Source: Coriobacteriia bacterium (GTDB lineage Bacteria > Actinomycetota > Coriobacteriia > WRKU01 > WQUG01). From it: a stretch of DNA of 53,754 bases. Positions 2,188 through 48,578 of this stretch are shown here, piece after piece (the stretch's first letter is position 1; each line of letters begins with the position of its first letter). The stretch spans positions 1 through 53,754 of the forward strand of contig WRFR01000009.1 of assembly GCA_009778715.1 (NCBI GenBank). Direction: 5' to 3'. Under the pieces are notes generated by a model that saw only the letters and a program-made list of their open reading frames with translations, searched no databases and was not told where the DNA came from. The position numbers and the translations under genes are program-made.

Positions 2188-3432
2188 ATGATGGTTAGTA
2201 CTGTGCAGAATGATTCGATAGTTCTTCCGCGTGTCAACGTTGGGTTGATTACCAAAACACTTCTGGTTTGTGCAGCAGTTTTGTTGCTGTTCCTGGGTCT
2301 TGCCAGTAAGGCGGGGGCCGATCCGGCATCTGGCGCCACAGGGGCTACTCTCACTCAACTTATTACTCCTGTTTCTTCTGATACGACTTCAGTTGCGCTG
2401 CTCGGCGCACCACCAACAAATGTCCCGATCACCTATGACGACGCCAGTTGCTCGATTTGTCATTCGAACAATGTACAGCTCGAGCATCAGAAATATTCTG
2501 GCTGTTCTCTCTGCCATGGGAATGCAGGAATCTCAAGTATGTCATCGCCGGTCGACATTCCGGGAGCTGTTGGTAAAAAGAGCTGCGGCACTGACGTCGA
2601 TGCATGCCATGGTCCCAATGGAGGCCAGGCATGGCATGGCTCTGGCGTTGAAGGGGCGTGGGCTGTCGATGGGATGAATAGCTCCCATGCGACCATGGAC
2701 ACACTCACAGCCACTCCGATGGACGCCCAGACCAGTTGTGGCGGTTATGATGACGGGACTGGTACGCCAACCTGTCATAGCGCAGGCTCAACACAGTCGA
2801 ATTATTACTTTGGAATGTCTGATGGGGCATACGATCTGGCAGCAGCGCACGCTGACTATTACAATGCTGTGAAAAACAAAAAAACAGGCCCCGGGGTAAC
2901 GCCTTCCACAGCCATCACCGCATCTGCAAGCGCCTGCGGCATCTGTCATGATAAGAACTCGACTCTCGACGGGGAGCTGAAGCCGGTCATCGCGGCAAAA
3001 GTCAACGCCGCGGGCGGTCCGGGAAACTTGACTTGCAAGTCATGTCATGATGGCACGAATGGTACCTACGTACCGCTAACTGCTTATGCGGCAGTTGACC
3101 CCAGCCTTCCGAGTTTGACTGGTAACAAATCCCTTTGCTATAAGGCTAATTCCAGTCTGGCAACTTCGATGAGCACGTCAGCGGCTCCCGGATCTCTGCT
3201 CTCAGGCCTCACGAGCCATTCAACTACCTCTGCTGCCTTACCGGCGGCAGAAGGAGATCAGGTGGATGCGCTTATTGGCCAACTCAGTCCTGAACTCCAG
3301 GCACAACTGAGCGGCGTAACGGGGCAGCAGCAACAGCTTTCCGCTGGTACGCTTTCGATGAACAACCTGGGTATTCCGGATTCGGCTTTACCTGCGACCT
3401 CGATTTCAAAGATGCCGTTGTTTTTCAGGTAA
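2188..3432 (+). CDS. secreted multihaem cytochrome c-like protein
   Basis: A 414-aa protein with an N-terminal membrane helix/signal sequence (about residues 21-45), then a cysteine- and histidine-rich domain. Four canonical haem-binding CXXCH motifs are visible (CSICH at residue 88, CSLCH at 106, then CGICH and CKSCH). Two further sites have stretched spacing (C-x6-CH at 133-141 and C-x11-CH). This pattern is that of multihaem c-type cytochromes of the doubled-CXXCH/NapC-like kind that carry electrons outside the membrane. The last 110 residues lack cysteine-histidine motifs and are Ser/Ala/Gln-rich. ATG 2188 is followed by a second ATG and lacks a strong Shine-Dalgarno, so the exact start is uncertain. 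No cytochrome maturation genes are nearby. A zinc-binding secreted protein is the alternative. Confidence 0.65.
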   Translation: MMVSTVQNDSIVLPRVNVGLITKTLLVCAAVLLLFLGLASKAGADPASGATGATLTQLITPVSSDTTSVALLGAPPTNVPITYDDASCSICHSNNVQLEHQKYSGCSLCHGNAGISSMSSPVDIPGAVGKKSCGTDVDACHGPNGGQAWHGSGVEGAWAVDGMNSSHATMDTLTATPMDAQTSCGGYDDGTGTPTCHSAGSTQSNYYFGMSDGAYDLAAAHADYYNAVKNKKTGPGVTPSTAITASASACGICHDKNSTLDGELKPVIAAKVNAAGGPGNLTCKSCHDGTNGTYVPLTAYAAVDPSLPSLTGNKSLCYKANSSLATSMSTSAAPGSLLSGLTSHSTTSAALPAAEGDQVDALIGQLSPELQAQLSGVTGQQQQLSAGTLSMNNLGIPDSALPATSISKMPLFFR

Positions 3433-3461
3433 CGTAACCCTGAAATAAGAACAACGTCCTC

Positions 3462-3498
3462 ACGAGTGCTCCGAGATCCCGGAGCACTCGTTATCTTT
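3462..3498 (+). terminator. rho-independent terminator after the haem protein gene
   Basis: A 12-bp perfect stem (ACGAGTGCTCCG at 3462-3473 with CGGAGCACTCGT at 3480-3491), a 6-nt loop and a short T-rich tail. It separates the haem protein from the str operon. Confidence 0.85.
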
Positions 3499-3765
3499 AC
3501 TATACTTCTCAGTTGTCGATCAACTCACAGCATGAGGGGCAAGAGGATTCCGTAACTGATGGATACGCCCGGTAGCGTGGTGTTGACGAATGAGCTCTCT
3601 TCTAGTAATGTAGTACCCCGCGACTAATTTTCAGGGAACGCATGGTGCTGCATGCGAGTTGCCCCCGGGAAACAGGCGGCCACCTTGGGGCGAACCAGGC
3701 AGGTTCTCACCAAATGTCCGCCACCGGTAATGGATAGTAAACTTAAACGTGAAGGGAAGCAAACT
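3499..3765 (+). promoter_or_regulatory. str operon promoter region and structured leader
   Basis: This is the non-coding leader before rpsL. A possible promoter is TTGACG (3583-3588), 17 nt, TAATGT (3606-3611); the -10 match is only partial. Downstream there is a small hairpin (CGCATG 3639-3644 with CATGCG 3651-3656) and a GCCCC/GGGGC pairing further on, so the transcript leader is probably folded. The reading frame of rpsL is open back to an ATG at 3652, but the extra residues do not resemble S12. Nothing else is seen here. Confidence 0.4.
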
Positions 3766-4134
3766 TTGCCTACCATCAACCAACTGGTCCGCAAGGGCCG
3801 CACAGCTGTTGCTGAAAAGAAGAAGAACCCGGCGTTGAAGGGCAACCCTCAGCTGCGGGGCGTCTGCACACGTGTCTACACCACCACGCCAAAGAAACCG
3901 AACTCGGCTCTGCGTAAAGTCTGCCGTGTGCGCCTGAGCAACGGCATCGAGGTTACCGCTTATATTCCGGGTATCGGCCATAATCTGCAGGAACACTCCA
4001 TCGTGCTCGTGCGCGGCGGTCGTGTTCGCGACCTGCCTGGTGTTCGCTACAAGGTGGTTCGTGGCGCGCTTGACGCCGCCAGCGTATCCGATCGCGCCCA
4101 GGGCCGCAGCCGTTATGGCGCAAAGAAATCCTAA
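3766..4134 (+). CDS. rpsL: 30S ribosomal protein S12
   Basis: S12 (122 aa) lines the decoding centre of the 30S subunit and is the target region for streptomycin resistance. The start is TTG 3766, because the family N terminus [11 protein letters not shown] begins exactly there, with GAAGGGAAG just upstream; the longer frame from ATG 3652 is unlike S12. The [12 protein letters not shown] loop is intact with Lys43. In the second loop the sequence is G-R-V-R88-D-L-P-G, with arginine where most bacteria have lysine 88 (Mycobacterium numbering). First gene of the str operon, followed by rpsG 42 nt later. Confidence 0.97.
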
Positions 4135-41177: not shown

Positions 41178-41199
41178 ATACCTTTCAGGAAGGACTGAT

Positions 41200-42574
41200 A
41201 TGAGCAACCAGAAGAAAATTGTAGGGGGGGGGGGCTTCAGGTAGTCTAGTCCCAATTTGTAAGGCATTCATGCTTTTTATTGGATTAGGCGCCATTCTTT
41301 TCGGGCTTCTTTATGCGACTGCGTTTTTACCGCGCGCCAGGATACAGGGGCACATTGCCCAGGATCGACAAAAGATTGTTTCTCGAGGGCAACATCCAAT
41401 TGAAAAGTTCGCTGGTTCGCAAGTAATCTTGGATGGACTCTCTGATGCGTTCATGATGTCGGAGTCCCTCACTCACTATCCCGGGTATACTCCGCTTAAA
41501 CAAATAATTCTCAGTCCGACTTTGACAGCGTCGCATGATCCCGGTACTGAAACAAAATTATTGAACAAGCAAGTTATGGGACAACCTGTTCCCCTCGTAA
41601 ATTACACTCGCTATTGGCATGGCTATTTAGTCACGCTACGACCCGCTCTTACTCTTTTTTCTTATAGTACCGTGGTAAAACTTAACATCGTGATAAGCCT
41701 TCTCTTGATGCTTGGCGCGGCCATCGCTTTTCGAAAGGTCTCAGGATGGGTTGGCGCGGTGACATTCGTGTTTTCGCTCTTATTGGTTGGATATTGGGCT
41801 ACCGTATTCAACTTCCAGACTTCAACGATGTTTCTCATTTCATTTATTGGGGTTATTACTGCTGCGCTGCTTTTGAAACACAAAGAAATGACTCGATGGG
41901 ATTATCTGCTGTTCCTCAGCTTGGGGATAGGTACAGCATTCTTTGATTTTCTGACTATACCGCTTCTTAGTCTTTGCCTTCCGGCGCTCTATCTTATTGC
42001 GGCAGCTCTGAAAAAAGGTACCCCACTGCGTGTACGGCGTATTTTCTTATGGTTTGTGTGCTGGGGTATAGGTTATGTTTGTTTTTGGGCGATCAAGTGG
42101 ATAATGGTCGCTGCTTTACAAGGACCGGCCGCTTTAAAGTCGATCCTTTCGCAAGTCACATATCGCGCCGGCTCATCGGGAGCACAAGGCCTGACGGGTA
42201 GCTTACGTTTGACTGGGATCATGCGGAATATTAAGTGGTTCAGTTATAACCTTGTTGGAACAGGGAAGTCGCTTCCGCTTCTCGCTTTAGCGGCTGTTGT
42301 TATCGCGGGCTTTATTATCACGTTAGTTTATATGTTATTCACAAAAAAGACCGATCTGCGTACGAGACTCCGCTCGTTTTTCGTTATCTGGGCTTTTGCC
42401 GCAGTGCCTTTCTTTTGGTATATGTTCGCGCTTAATCACTCAGTAGCGAATGCGCTTTTCACCTATCGGCTTCTTTTTGTGAGCATATTTGCTACTTGCC
42501 TCTTTTGGATCTTGTTTTTAAAGCAAAAAGAAAAACTTTCACATGTTATAAAGAGCCGAGATGATGACAATTAA
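41200..42574 (+). CDS. polytopic membrane protein with start frameshifted at a G11 tract (candidate phase-variable gene)
   Basis: ATG 41200 follows AGGAAGG by 6 nt and reads M-S-N-Q-K-K-I-V, then runs into eleven Gs (41224-41234) and stops at TAG 41242-41244. With ten Gs the frame would continue G-G-G-A-S-G-S-L-V-P-I-C-K-A-F-M into the long frame that starts here at ATG 41270 (434 aa), with no stop between. The body has about ten hydrophobic segments and a large exposed first loop, as in GT-C-type glycosyltransferases, but no definite motif is seen. It is AT-rich relative to its neighbours. ATG 41270 alone lacks a good ribosome-binding site. Confidence 0.75.
41224..41234 (+). repeat. G11 homopolymer tract
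   Basis: Eleven consecutive Gs, 24 bp after an ATG with a good ribosome-binding site. Homopolymers of this length are prone to slipped-strand change; the length decides whether the gene that follows is in frame. Confidence 0.85.
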
Positions 42575-42726: not shown

Positions 42727-42802
42727 GACATTACGGGCTTGTCAATGCCGATAAATTATGAACTAGGGATCTGACGATCATTAACTAGAAGAAGGAACTG
42801 AT

Positions 42803-43729
42803 ATGAAAACAGCTATCCTGCTGCCTTGCTATAACGAGGGGACCACGATCGCGAAGGTGGTCGCGGATTACTATAAGCTCCTGCCTGAAGCGACGGTCTA
42901 TGTTTACGACAACAACTCGACGGACGATTCAGCGGAGTCCGCCCGCCAGGCGGGGGCGATCGTCGTCCCTGAGTATCGGCAGGGCAAAGGCTTCGTGGTG
43001 CGTTCGATGTTTCGTGATATCGAGGCTGACGTCTATCTGATGGTCGACGCTGACGACACCTACGAGGCTGCTGATGTAGTCGCGCTTGGCGCTGACGTGG
43101 CGAGCGGGCGCGCGGATATGGTGGTCGGCGACCGCCTCTCCGGCGCCTACTTCACTGAGAACAAGCGCGCGTTTCATAACACAGGTAACCGCGGAGTCCG
43201 GTGGCTGATCAATCGGATATTTAACAGCGACATCGCCGACGTAATGACCGGCGCCCGCGCATTTTCGCGTCCCTTCGTCAAGACTTACCCGTCGTTTTCC
43301 GGGGGCTTCGAGGTTGAGACCGAGATGACGATCCATGCGCTCGATAAAAATTTCCTCGTGACTCAGCACCCAGTTGGGTATCGTGACCGGCCTCAGGGCA
43401 GCGAGAGCAAGCTGGACACGATCCCCGATGGCCTGCGGGTACTCAAAACGATATTCGCGCTCTTCAAGGATTTCCGCCCGCTCATGTTCTTCGGGCTGAC
43501 GTCTTTGATCATCTTCCTGGTGGCTTTCGCGCTTTTCCTGATTCCGCTTGACGAGTTCATCATGACCGGCCAGGTGCTGCGCTTCCCGACTTTGATCGTT
43601 TCGATCGGCTTGTTCGTGATGTCACTTCTTTCAGTGGTCTGCGGGGTGATCATTGACTCGATCCGCAAGCAGACCCGGCTGTTCTTCGAGATCGAGTTGA
43701 CACGCGTCACGCACGAGAACCAGAGCTGA
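42803..43729 (+). CDS. family-2 glycosyltransferase, DPM1-like, with two C-terminal membrane helices
   Basis: A 308-aa GT2 enzyme. A-I-L-L-P-C-Y-N-E-G-T-T-I at the start, the D-N-N-S-T-D-D-S nucleotide-sugar loop, the D-A-D-D metal-binding motif (L-M-V-D-A-D-D-T-Y) and R-Q-G-K-G-F are visible, as is the Y-R-D-R-P-x-G-S-E-S-K motif of polyprenyl-phosphate glycosyltransferases. Two helices near residues 230-250 and 265-290 anchor it. It probably loads a sugar onto undecaprenyl phosphate for envelope glycan modification, with the GtrA gene next to it as flippase. Confidence 0.88.
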   Translation: MKTAILLPCYNEGTTIAKVVADYYKLLPEATVYVYDNNSTDDSAESARQAGAIVVPEYRQGKGFVVRSMFRDIEADVYLMVDADDTYEAADVVALGADVASGRADMVVGDRLSGAYFTENKRAFHNTGNRGVRWLINRIFNSDIADVMTGARAFSRPFVKTYPSFSGGFEVETEMTIHALDKNFLVTQHPVGYRDRPQGSESKLDTIPDGLRVLKTIFALFKDFRPLMFFGLTSLIIFLVAFALFLIPLDEFIMTGQVLRFPTLIVSIGLFVMSLLSVVCGVIIDSIRKQTRLFFEIELTRVTHENQS

Positions 43730-43737
43730 GGCAAAGG

Positions 43738-44217
43738 ATGGGGATTATCAAGAAACTGAAGGCGCTCATCGAAAAGTTGTGGGCGCTTGAGTTCGTACGG
43801 TTTCTGTGCGCCGGCGCTTTCAATACCGCTTTTAACTGGGGCTTGTTCGCGCTGCTCTGGTTGATCCTTAAGCCGGAGGCCTCGCTTCTGATGGCGGCAC
43901 AGGCTTCTACCCTGCGCTTCATTGGCGGCCATTATTACGCCGTTGTTACCTGGATTGCCTGGTTCTTGACGGTGCCAGTCAGCACCTACACGATGCGGCG
44001 TTTCGTGTTCAGGCATGAAGGCGCCTATTTCCGGCAGGTGCTGCGCGCTTATGGCGTCTATCTTCCCGCGCAGCTGGTTTCGATGGGTGTCTTGGTCTTC
44101 TGTGTTCAAGTGCTGAAGTTCCACCCGCTGTTGGGGCAGCTGGTCGCGGTTTGTTTCTCGACCGTCATCTCCTACGTCGGGAACAAGTTCTTCACGTTTC
44201 GCGCGTCTTTCTCATAA
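43738..44217 (+). CDS. GtrA-family membrane protein
   Basis: A 159-aa protein with four membrane helices. V-R-F-L-C-A-G-A-F-N-T-A-F-N-W-G-L-F near residue 20 and the C-terminal Y-V-G-N-K-F-F-T-F-R are typical of the GtrA family, thought to flip undecaprenyl-phosphate-linked sugars. The start is placed at ATG 43738, eight bases after the glycosyltransferase stop; GGCAAAGG provides the ribosome-binding site. Confidence 0.88.
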   Translation: MGIIKKLKALIEKLWALEFVRFLCAGAFNTAFNWGLFALLWLILKPEASLLMAAQASTLRFIGGHYYAVVTWIAWFLTVPVSTYTMRRFVFRHEGAYFRQVLRAYGVYLPAQLVSMGVLVFCVQVLKFHPLLGQLVAVCFSTVISYVGNKFFTFRASFS

Positions 44218-44313: not shown

Positions 44314-46944
44314 ATGAGCAAGAATGATGCGCGTTCAGAACAAGGGTCGACTTTGACTACCCGCCAGAAGTGGCTGGCGATCGTTTCATTGTTTGTCATC
44401 GGAGCAACCGTACTCTATGTGAAGAAATGGGCGTTTTTCATCCCACACTTCCCGAAGATGTTCTTCGGGCCGTTTCTTGTGTTGGCGCTCGGCCTGGTCG
44501 TTGCGTGCGGGGTGTTCTTCAGCAGGAGCTGCGAGATCGATCGCAAAGCGCTCCTGCGCGAGGCGCTCCCACTTATTATCTACTATGCGGTGACTTTCGC
44601 GGTATTGATCGCCGGGACGTTGCGGGCCCATGACCCGCTGGTGCGGGTCGCAGGCTCGATCGCTACTAATTACTGGATGCTTTACGCCGCCCTGCCCTTT
44701 GCTTACCTGATCGGTGTGGTCAACCGGCGCACCCCGCGGCGCTGGATCGCCTTTTTCTTCGTCGTCATCATGACGGTCGCCGTTATCAGCGGTCTGGGCG
44801 AATTGCTGAGGGACTTCGGCATCTCAAACCCGGTTGGCAACTTCTTCTACTGGCTTAACCAGGTTGCAAACCGCCCCTTTGCGTCCTGGTCCTGGAATCA
44901 TATCGAGTCGTTGCGCCTGACGGGCTTTACTAACAACCCGAATATCTTCGGATATTTCGCCGTTATTGCGTTCGCGTGGGCCTGCACAGGGAAGGGCGAC
45001 CGGATGGCGCGCATCATCGTTGCGGTCGAAAGCCTGCTGGTGGTGTTCTTCAGTGCGTCACGCACCTCGCTCCTTGCCCTGCTGGCGGTACTGATCTGCG
45101 TAACGGTCATATACCGCAAAGATATCAAGGCTTTCTGTTTTGCGACCCGGCGTCGCAAAGCGCTCTTCTTCACCGTGCTGGCGGTGCTGGGGGTCGCCGT
45201 TGTCGCGGTCGTCGTCATGGCTTTGACGAGGCAACGCCTTGCCGACTTTGGCCTGCTCGGGCGCCTGGTCTCAGCGGATCAACAGGTCAACGCGCAGGGC
45301 TCAGGATCGCTCACCTCACAGCTTCTCAATGCGCTGATGTCCGGACGGGGCGACCTCTGGACGGCCGCATGGCGGGTCATCAGCGCGCATCCCTGGGGGG
45401 CGTGGCTGACCGTCATGCAGATGTTCAGCATGAACGTCCATAACGACTTCCTGGCTTCCTGGTTGCAGGGCGGCCCGCTCATGTTTGCCGCGTTTGTCGC
45501 GTTGATGGCCTGGATGGCGACGCGAAAGACCGAGCCCGCATCACGGGCGCTTCCCTTGTGCCTGTGCTTGATCTCGGTGATCACCAGCCTGTTCGACAAT
45601 ACCTTCACCGTTGCCTATTCGCCCCACCTCGTGTTCTTCTTATTGGGCGTTTATAGCATAAGCACGACAGAATACGCGGCGCTGCGCGCGGGCGGTGACG
45701 CAGGCGGTGGCACGCAAGAAGCATCCGGGAGCAGCAGCAGCCGCGGGCTTGCCTTTTTGCTGCGCCTGGGCCGTCCGTTTGCCAACCTTTACTATGCGGG
45801 CATCAAGCGGCGTCATCCGGTCCGTCGCAAGGTGACCCTGCTCTCACGTCAGTCAAGTGAGGCCACGGCTGATTTCACCCTGCTGATCGAGGCACTACGG
45901 GCGGCCGACCCGGAGCTGGAGATCGCGGTGCACTGCCTGTATGATGAGGGCGATACACGCGCGCTGAAAACGATAGCTGGCCACCTGAGCGAGGAGTTGC
46001 GCGATGTGGCGTCTTCCCGTGCCGTGGTGCTTGACGGTTACAGCCCGGCGATCAGCTACTTCAATCAGCGTCCCGGGCTCTACGTCCTGCAGATGTGGCA
46101 CGCGCTTGGCGCGATAAAGAAGTTCTCGCTCCAAACGCTTGATACGAGCGGCGGGCGGTCTTCGACGCTGGCGAAGGCGGCGCGCATGCACCGGGGCTAC
46201 AGCCAGGTGCTGTGCGGGGGTGAGGGGAGCGTGCCGTTTTTCGCAGAAGCGTTTAACGTGGAACCCGAACGTATCGCCACGATGCTCCTGCCTCGTGCCG
46301 ATACGTTGCGCGCGCTTCGCTCATTTGCGGGCGCCTCGGGGCGCCTGCTCTATGCTCCGACCTTTCGTGATAGCCCCCGTCAGCGCGCCCGGTGGTGCCA
46401 GGCTGCTCTTGAGCTTGCTCACGCAGCTGAGGGCGCTGGCCTGCAGCTGACGATCAGCCTGCATCCGCTCGCAGCGGCTCAGCTGCAACGTGATGGCTTA
46501 TCTGATGAGCTGGCGGCCCTGGCGCCCTACCTGGAGACGGAGCGTTCTACTCAGGATCTGATGGCTGGCTGCGCCGACGTCATTACCGATTATTCTGCTG
46601 TAGTTTTTGAGGCGGCTCTTGCCGGGCGTAATGTCTGGTTCTATGATTATGACTTAGACGAGTATCGTAACGATAGGGGATTAAACATCGATACTTCCCT
46701 TGAACTTCCTGAGGCGACTTTTTTCTCCGCGGCAACGCTTATCGATGCGCTCCGTGGTGTTGCGTCACGTTCCGAGGCGCGCGCGGCCAGTCAGGCCTTT
46801 TTCGCGCGTTACCTTGTTCGTGAACCTGGTTCAGCGGCAGCGCAGGTGGCAGGGTTTCTGAAAGCACACGTGCTGTCAGATTCGGACGCCTCAACTCCGC
46901 TCATGGCTCAGGGTAGCCAGGCGCCGGTGGCGGGGGAGCGCTGA
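44314..46944 (+). CDS. fusion of O-antigen ligase/polymerase-like domain and CDP-glycerol glycerophosphotransferase domain
   Basis: An 876-aa protein with two parts. Residues 1-455 are a membrane domain with about ten to twelve helices and Wzy/WaaL-type features: R-L-T-G-F-T-N-N-P-N-I-F-G (about 201-213), S-A-S-R-T-S-L-L-A-L and S-M-N-V-H-N-D-F-L-A-S-W-L-Q-G-G near 382. A Gly/Ser linker (469-486) leads to a cytoplasmic domain (about 500-870) with the TagB/TagF pattern: L-Q-M-W-H-A-L-G-A-I-K-K-F-S, Y-A-P-T-F-R-D, I-T-D-Y-S-A-V-V-F-E-A-A-L and W-F-Y-D-Y-D-L-D-E-Y. It may polymerise or ligate a glycan and add polyol-phosphate units. Its stop overlaps the next ATG by one base. Confidence 0.85.
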   Translation: MSKNDARSEQGSTLTTRQKWLAIVSLFVIGATVLYVKKWAFFIPHFPKMFFGPFLVLALGLVVACGVFFSRSCEIDRKALLREALPLIIYYAVTFAVLIAGTLRAHDPLVRVAGSIATNYWMLYAALPFAYLIGVVNRRTPRRWIAFFFVVIMTVAVISGLGELLRDFGISNPVGNFFYWLNQVANRPFASWSWNHIESLRLTGFTNNPNIFGYFAVIAFAWACTGKGDRMARIIVAVESLLVVFFSASRTSLLALLAVLICVTVIYRKDIKAFCFATRRRKALFFTVLAVLGVAVVAVVVMALTRQRLADFGLLGRLVSADQQVNAQGSGSLTSQLLNALMSGRGDLWTAAWRVISAHPWGAWLTVMQMFSMNVHNDFLASWLQGGPLMFAAFVALMAWMATRKTEPASRALPLCLCLISVITSLFDNTFTVAYSPHLVFFLLGVYSISTTEYAALRAGGDAGGGTQEASGSSSSRGLAFLLRLGRPFANLYYAGIKRRHPVRRKVTLLSRQSSEATADFTLLIEALRAADPELEIAVHCLYDEGDTRALKTIAGHLSEELRDVASSRAVVLDGYSPAISYFNQRPGLYVLQMWHALGAIKKFSLQTLDTSGGRSSTLAKAARMHRGYSQVLCGGEGSVPFFAEAFNVEPERIATMLLPRADTLRALRSFAGASGRLLYAPTFRDSPRQRARWCQAALELAHAAEGAGLQLTISLHPLAAAQLQRDGLSDELAALAPYLETERSTQDLMAGCADVITDYSAVVFEAALAGRNVWFYDYDLDEYRNDRGLNIDTSLELPEATFFSAATLIDALRGVASRSEARAASQAFFARYLVREPGSAAAQVAGFLKAHVLSDSDASTPLMAQGSQAPVAGER

Positions 46945-48578
46945 TGGATCTTACTGAAGAGCTGCTCAGCCTTGCCTGGATGCAGGTACTGATCTTTGCC
47001 AACATAGCGCCGGTCTTCTGGAAGACGAAGCGCCGGTTGGGGTATTTTGCCCTGTGCGCCTATCTGGATAAGACTTCTGAGGGGATAAACTTCAAGCAGA
47101 CGCGCTTGTTTGCCGGTACGGTCCCGGTGCGCATGCGTATGCTGATGCGCCACGGCCTGCGCGTGCCCTTCACCAAGTTGCACTTCAACTTCATGCGGGT
47201 CAGCATTGATCTCGACGGGCCGCAGCGCGTCGACCTGATCATCAACAACATGTTGAACTTTGAGATCATCACTGACGAGCGCACCTGGCGCGTGCCCTTC
47301 GTCTACGACCTGCTCAACGCCCGCCACGGACGCTACCGCCATGGACGGATCGCAGTCGATCACAGCCGGGGCCTGAGCCTGTATTTCCGGCAGACCAGGC
47401 AAAACGCGCTCGTACTGGCCCAGCGCAAGATCAATCGCACCGATACGGCGCGTGAGCGCCTCAAACTGCGCCTGGCCCATCTGATGGCTCTCGTGGCGCC
47501 CCGCTCGCATGAGGTGCTTCTCTATGAGAAAGAGCTCCAGGGCTATGGGGAGTCAGCTTCGGTGCTCTTCGAGCGCCTCTGCGAGGGGGGCTACTCGCGT
47601 GCCTACTATCTGCTTGATCCGGCCAGTCCCCAGGCGGGCTTCGTCCCCTCCTCGTGTCGCCAGCACGTCATCGACGCTTTTACCGTGCGTCACTACTATC
47701 ATTTCTTCGCTTGCCGCACGTTCATGGGGACCGAGGGATTGCAGCACGCGCTGGAGTCCCGCGTGGCAAGTCCGATCGCGCAGCGAAAAGCTAACAGCCA
47801 GCACAACCGCTTCGTCTTCCTGCAGCATGGCGTCATGTATATGGTGTCGCTGGCCTCGCCGTTGCGGCAGGTGTTTCGCGAAGGCATCCGCTCGTATCGC
47901 TTCCATCGCGTTGTCGTTTCCTCTCAGACAGAAGCACAACACTTCATCGACGCGGCAGGCTATACGCCCGAGTCGCTCTACATCACCGGCCTGCCGGATT
48001 ACGATCACTACCAGATAGCGCCGGACGCCGATCGCATCATCCTGATGCCGACCTGGCGCGAGTGGGAATTTAACCAGGCGCGGGTCGCCCCTGAGCAGAC
48101 GGGCTACTACCGGCTGCTGTGCGCGATGTATGAGAGTGTTCCGCTTGAGCTGCGCGAGCGGGTCTGGGTTCTGCCACATCCCTTGATGCTGGAGGCGTTT
48201 CGCGCAAGCGACCTGGCCGATCATATCCCCTCCTTCGAGCGCTACAGCGACTTGCTCCGTGTGTGCAAGTTGTTCATCACGGACTACTCCTCGGCATCGT
48301 TTGCGGCATTCTATGGGGGCAGTAACGTGTTGTTCTTCTGGCGCGACCTCGAGGAGTGCATCCAGCAGTACGGTGCTCCGCTCATGCTTGATGAACGTAC
48401 CGCGTTCGGGGAAGTCTGCTGGAATCCCGCAGCGCTTGCCACCGCGGTCGATCGTTGGTATGGCGCGCCGCAGGATCCCACGTTTGAATCTCACTACCGC
48501 CGGTTGGTCACCTATCATGACGGGTGCAATACAGAGCGGCTAATTGCCGCCCTGGCTGCCGACCACCTGCTATACTAG
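46944..48578 (+). CDS. CDP-glycerol glycerophosphotransferase (TagB/TagF family)
   Basis: A 544-aa protein. The N-terminal 220 residues hold no family domain I can name, though the start looks membrane-associated. The C-terminal 300 residues match the TagB/TagF family: F-L-Q-H-G-V-M-Y-M-V-S (catalytic His region), S-S-Q-T-E, I-T-G-L-P-D-Y-D-H-Y, M-P-T-W-R-E-W, P-H-P-L, and I-T-D-Y-S-S-A-S-F-A-A-F-Y. It would transfer glycerol-phosphate or a similar polyol unit from a CDP-activated donor, building teichoic-acid-like polymer. It is coupled to the preceding fusion gene by a TGATG overlap. Confidence 0.88.
   Translation: MDLTEELLSLAWMQVLIFANIAPVFWKTKRRLGYFALCAYLDKTSEGINFKQTRLFAGTVPVRMRMLMRHGLRVPFTKLHFNFMRVSIDLDGPQRVDLIINNMLNFEIITDERTWRVPFVYDLLNARHGRYRHGRIAVDHSRGLSLYFRQTRQNALVLAQRKINRTDTARERLKLRLAHLMALVAPRSHEVLLYEKELQGYGESASVLFERLCEGGYSRAYYLLDPASPQAGFVPSSCRQHVIDAFTVRHYYHFFACRTFMGTEGLQHALESRVASPIAQRKANSQHNRFVFLQHGVMYMVSLASPLRQVFREGIRSYRFHRVVVSSQTEAQHFIDAAGYTPESLYITGLPDYDHYQIAPDADRIILMPTWREWEFNQARVAPEQTGYYRLLCAMYESVPLELRERVWVLPHPLMLEAFRASDLADHIPSFERYSDLLRVCKLFITDYSSASFAAFYGGSNVLFFWRDLEECIQQYGAPLMLDERTAFGEVCWNPAALATAVDRWYGAPQDPTFESHYRRLVTYHDGCNTERLIAALAADHLLY
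48568..48576 (+). promoter_or_regulatory. extended -10 promoter before the NlpC/P60 gene
   Basis: TGC-TATACT overlaps the end of the preceding coding region, 57 nt before the NlpC/P60 ATG. Confidence 0.4.

Follow-up and report, generated by a model that had tools for sequence, protein, structure and literature searches.

Within the window, as we call the whole 53,754-nt stretch analysed here, a run of eleven guanines interrupts a short leader frame just upstream of a 434-codon membrane-protein gene, and this gene is followed on the same strand by a gtrB-like glycosyltransferase gene, a gtrA-like flippase gene and two genes with CDP-glycerol glycerophosphotransferase domains (Table 1). The neighbourhood of glycosyltransferase, GtrA and CDP-glycerol transferase genes reported in a preliminary description of this DNA is borne out by matches to PF00535, PF04138 and PF04464, respectively.

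Table 1. Features of the proposed switch and of the adjoining genes (window coordinates).
Feature	Coordinates	Strand	Evidence
Shine-Dalgarno AGGAAGG of ATG 41200	41187..41193	+	sequence; anti-SD -6.5 kcal/mol; likeness to gtrB start region
Leader ORF, MSNQKKIVGGGGFR followed by stop; OFF state as assembled	41200..41244	+	tract-length series
G11 tract, proposed switch	41224..41234	+	sequence, run counts, tract-length series
Putative GT-C-like glycosyltransferase, 434-codon membrane protein, body of the switched gene	41270..42574	+	all 18 invariant residues present; Pfam search negative
gtrB-like polyprenyl-phosphate glycosyltransferase (GT2, AglJ-like)	42803..43729	+	PF00535; TIGR04182-like below its cut-off; 88% identical in L111
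gtrA-like flippase	43738..44217	+	PF04138 above its cut-off
O-antigen-ligase-like (Wzy_C) and CDP-glycerol glycerophosphotransferase fusion	44314..46944	+	PF04932, PF04464
Second CDP-glycerol glycerophosphotransferase-family gene	46944..48578	+	PF04464

The tract begins eight codons after the ATG at 41200-41202, and the frame opened by this codon closes at the TAG at 41242-41244; on re-reading, the start, its AGGAAGG, the eight codons, the eleven Gs and the stop all stand exactly as first described. When the tract length is varied in silico from 7 to 15 Gs, a single open frame of 456-458 codons runs through the downstream ORF at 7, 10 and 13 Gs (ON) and the product is truncated at 8, 9, 11, 12, 14 and 15 Gs (OFF), such that a change by one or two units exchanges the full-length for the truncated product. 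This confirms the frame relation proposed for ten or thirteen Gs and adds seven to the permissive lengths. It is important to note that chance may well place, ahead of an ORF, a short ATG-initiated frame that slippage could fuse to it, so that the frame relation alone is weak evidence and it is the comparative evidence presented below that carries the case.

Several observations bear on where translation of the gene starts. The calculated anti-Shine-Dalgarno duplex energy at ATG 41200 is more favourable than that at ATG 41270 (-3.7 kcal/mol) and compares with -5.7 kcal/mol at the neighbouring gtrB gene, whose start region (42793-42806) is similar to 41190-41203. The earlier remark that the 434-residue frame lacks a good ribosome-binding site thus holds with regard to duplex strength, but a partial Shine-Dalgarno, TAAGG, is present there, spaced too near the ATG. 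We further compared the N termini of eight homologues from the taxonomic family and twelve from the related-loci search, one of which is common to both sets: helix 1 is preceded in homologues by a short polar leader, of which a start at Met 41270 would remove about 10 residues, and the homologue profile matches the genome from 41255 even though this protein entered the profile from Met 41270. Since the homologues start about 10 residues 5' of Met 41270, the comparison favours ATG 41200 as the genuine start. No consensus promoter spanning the window tract was found, and a promoter role for it was rejected on that ground.

The G11 tract is the only G or C run of at least 8 in the window. A first-order model predicts about 0.015 G runs and 0.003 C runs of at least 11 per window, or about 0.02 together, and this is, if anything, an overestimate, since for G runs of at least 7 the model gives about 150 in the genome against the 32 found; with such runs fewer than modelled, the long ones stand out all the more and a chance origin of the tract is unlikely. 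The 1.73-Mb genome has internal runs of at least 9 at just two further places, the rest being low-complexity sequence at contig ends. The exact length is less secure than the tract itself, since a true G10 or G12 might have been called as G11.

The protein encoded downstream of the tract has no sequence match in Pfam, NCBIfam or the PDB, and a search of the genome collection with this membrane protein alone returned no relatives, whereas family and profile searches did. It is a polytopic membrane protein of a family in which 18 residues, including D55, D59, YWHG and H390, are invariant across 13 sequences; all 18 are kept in the tract-bearing gene, which thus looks functional. Its fold, predicted without an alignment, is useless (pLDDT 51), but with the 13 sequences the model reaches a pTM of 0.84, and the structures with the highest Foldseek probabilities are then ArnT and ALG12, both GT-C enzymes, with E-values that are not significant; the ArnT match (5f15) is itself weak (probability 0.92, E 0.3, TM 0.35). 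A GT-C transferase would be expected to conserve acidic residues in its first extracytoplasmic loop, and D55 and D59 are invariant here; the match to the GT-C fold is weak, and the assignment is putative.

The gene further differs from its surroundings in composition, with a G+C content of 45% against 55-63% in its neighbours, or 57-63% in the surrounding protein genes, and a GC3 of 0.45 against 0.72-0.77. In the nearest relative, a metagenome-assembled genome of the same genus (WQYT01000001, Coriobacteriia bacterium Emb289P4bin29; locus L111), the corresponding junction lacks it, and gtrB there comes straight after the upstream peptidase-like gene (82% identical). It was probably acquired horizontally, or else lost in that relative, and its unusual composition and absence from the equivalent site leave no close orthologue for comparison. 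Searches of plasmid and viral collections gave one distant plasmid match and no viral match.

Homologues of the gene directly adjoin GtrB/AglJ-like glycosyltransferase genes in relatives within the family, in Clostridia, Selenomonadaceae, Bacteroidota and others, that is, across many phyla. With a GtrB-like GT2 enzyme and a GtrA-family flippase both encoded at the window locus, the switched gene is probably, as judged from its context, the GT-C transferase in a three-component system for glycan decoration such as PMC11127046 describes. The fusion gene at 44314..46944 possibly belongs to the pathway for the acceptor polymer.

A profile search detected homologues in 21 of 250 Coriobacteriia genomes, and two of these genes carry homopolymers, both out of frame. 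In the first (L240) a G9 tract stands directly before helix 1, at a place equivalent to that of the window tract, and its leader, MLQQERMRSILRGVVQ, joins the body only at 7 or 10 Gs; in the second (L244), which comes from the same taxonomic order, a C12 tract parts the helix-1 segment from the remainder of the protein, within the first extracytoplasmic loop. Both lie in glycan regions, as indicated by a Wzz-like gene and a sugar transferase gene. A G8 run in a homologue of L130 was left out of this count, as it is in frame and the copy is broken elsewhere. Homologues starting at the equivalent of Met 41270 and free of a tract had been named at the outset as evidence against a switch; most homologues do indeed lack a tract, but their starts lie upstream of that position and not at it. 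The recurrence of tracts in homologues is, on these comparisons, the strongest argument that the tract itself may be under selection.

Elsewhere in the same genome, on another contig (G000:C3), a type III Mod gene adjoining a Res gene is broken by a C10 tract about 105 codons in. In silico, a frame of about 708 codons comes back at 8, 11 or 14 Cs, and the sequence beyond the tract matches a type III Mod model of 709 positions, starting at position 142 and reaching the last. This restriction-modification locus (L009, 4076-8750) is a candidate phasevarion; beside it, on the minus strand (3096-3905), a membrane gene and two small genes whose matches are weak and TIR/ThsB-like possibly form a defence island. 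Together with the window gene and the two homologues, the Mod gene brings the homopolymer-split genes discussed here to four, and all four are OFF in their assemblies, which chance allows (2/3 each). A second G11 tract (L011, 4924-4934; G000:C15) belongs to a second teichoic-acid-like cluster, which includes CDP-glycerol transferase and pyruvyl transferase genes. A YfhO-family gene follows the tract at a distance of about 210 bp, and neither an ORF nor a promoter consensus accounts for the tract. Poly-G at the ends of contigs C13, C21 and C34 was set aside as low-complexity junk, and that in L062 (ends), L067 and L068 as junk or composition.

In related genomes, tracts of 10-14 Gs are found between a short leader and a signal peptide in genes for secreted RCC1-repeat proteins (L101-L110 of G004, L084 of G008). 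The products of these loci and of L083 (G008) are secreted and, in those scanned, contain RCC1 repeats, with the tracts partly in frame and partly not. Poly-G also stands at the beginning of a gene for a BspA-type leucine-rich-repeat protein (L096) and within two MmeI-type type IIG enzymes, out of frame in one (G14; L077, G007) and in frame in the other (G12; L080, G008), at different places in the methyltransferase part. At four further loci of G008 (L086, L087, L089 and L090) the tract falls between TTGACA-like and TATAAT-like hexamers spaced 15-16 bases apart, exemplified by TTGACT, 16 bases and TAATAT at L086, which makes these candidate transcriptional switches. Tracts of G11-G12 with the near-identical left flank AAAAATGTA precede large surface-protein genes by about 300 bp in a genome of the window's genus (L063, L064 and L065; G001); the flank AAAA(A/T)TGTA-G-CT is common to these and the window tract, a likeness that is suggestive only.

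Across the class, poly-G tracts of at least 10 are present in 88 of 121 Coriobacteriia genomes, some of them contig-end or composition artefacts, and one single-contig genome holds 45. Seven larger genomes of one Coriobacteriia family (G032, G052, G068, G072, G088, G114 and G123) have 27-45 such tracts each, and a few of those inspected there interrupt long ORFs near the 5' end. We lean towards a poly-G phasome in an uncultured Coriobacteriia family, and perhaps in much of the class, similar to those that Campylobacter and Neisseria have, which would jointly switch glycan decoration, methylation and repeat proteins. If true, it would take in type III Mod and MmeI-type IIG enzymes as well as secreted RCC1- and leucine-rich-repeat proteins, by way of both intragenic and promoter-spacer tracts.

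In light of these comparisons, we consider it likely that the run of eleven Gs constitutes a translational contingency locus through which a surface-glycan gene undergoes slipped-strand phase variation, and it very probably belongs, as far as sequence can tell, to a group of switches in this genome and its relatives that turn ON and OFF at random. The phase-variation reading offered at the outset thus finds support in the intact downstream coding sequence, in the G9, C12 and C10 tracts of the two homologues and of Mod, and in the 5'-proximal poly-G tracts of relatives. We propose that slipped-strand mispairing during replication would add or remove Gs. Ribosomes starting at ATG 41200 would read on into the complete GT-C-type membrane glycosyltransferase at 10, 13 or 7 Gs and would stop within about 16 codons at 11 or 12 Gs, the OFF state being that of the assembly. 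The GtrB-like enzyme would make a sugar on polyprenyl phosphate and GtrA would flip it; in the ON state the GT-C enzyme may then transfer the flipped sugar to a polymer of the cell surface, for which the teichoic-acid-like glycan of the adjoining gene cluster is one possibility, and the population would become a mix of decorated and undecorated cells. Replication slippage accounts together for the tract, the frames, the tracts in homologues and those in other genes.

An error of sequencing or assembly, with a real and invariant G10 and the gene simply ON, is in our estimate very unlikely. Homopolymer length is error-prone, Illumina trouble at G-tracts has been described (PMC9187656), and the same assembly carries low-complexity poly-G at three contig ends, but the window tract is contig-internal and has counterparts both in homologues and in further genes of this lineage, so that it looks real whatever its length; moreover, G10 is also prone to slippage, and such an error would remove the OFF state, not the switch. 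We hold it to be very unlikely that the gene is a young pseudogene, acquired horizontally and broken at its 5' end, or that it starts at Met 41270 with the tract irrelevant. Its low G+C and GC3, its absence from the L111 junction and the partial Shine-Dalgarno at Met 41270 would fit either version, but every invariant residue is kept, the later start would shorten the N terminus relative to homologues, tracts are found in homologues at this position or close to it, and horizontal acquisition is in any case compatible with phase variation. Long homopolymers can in principle cause RNA polymerase or ribosome slippage, and as the tract lies inside a reading frame some product might arise in frame with the DNA unchanged, but paralogous genes of relatives differ in tract length (G10-G14, ON and OFF) in a manner that looks like DNA-level drift, and we give this explanation the least credence.

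A switch of this kind is well known, and searches of an open-access library, weak as evidence of absence, gave no report of one in Coriobacteriia or Eggerthella. Host-adapted Proteobacteria and Campylobacterota provide the classic poly-G contingency loci, and such loci have recently been measured in Bifidobacterium pili; the proposed glycan-gene switch, the split Mod gene and the tract-bearing surface genes of relatives suggest that Coriobacteriia, too, may randomly vary both surface and methylome. Campylobacter and Neisseria carry poly-G/poly-C contingency genes for surface glycans, C. jejuni Cj1295 reportedly being one example. The window locus resembles these in having a homopolymer inside a glycan gene whose length sets the frame, with other phase-variable surface genes nearby, and differs in phylum, in enzyme family and in that switching is here predicted from sequence. 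It likewise resembles the gtrABC cassettes of Salmonella and Shigella (PMC2909390, PMC11127046), in which a GtrB-like donor synthase, a GtrA-like flippase and a polytopic transferase stand side by side. According to PMC2909390, however, Salmonella gtr phase variation is DNA-methylation dependent and acts at the promoter, whereas the switch proposed here would be a poly-G tract confined to the transferase gene, and the bacterium's cell wall is of another type. The genome's second coding tract, splitting a type III Mod gene beside Res on a contig other than that of the glycan switch, is in turn reminiscent of phasevarions such as ModS of Streptococcus suis (PMC8125046).

A close parallel in form is provided by the sortase-pilus switches of Bifidobacterium breve UCC2003 (Penno et al. 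2022, PMC9187656). There, too, in an actinobacterial gut commensal, a tract of about 11 Gs parts a 5' ORF from the main ORF, its length sets read-through, and the deposited sequence is OFF. The 5' ORF of B. breve encodes a signal peptide, and the two cases differ in that a pilin operon is switched there and a glycosyltransferase gene would be switched here, and in that mixtures of tract lengths have been measured in B. breve, whereas the Coriobacteriia locus is known from its sequence.
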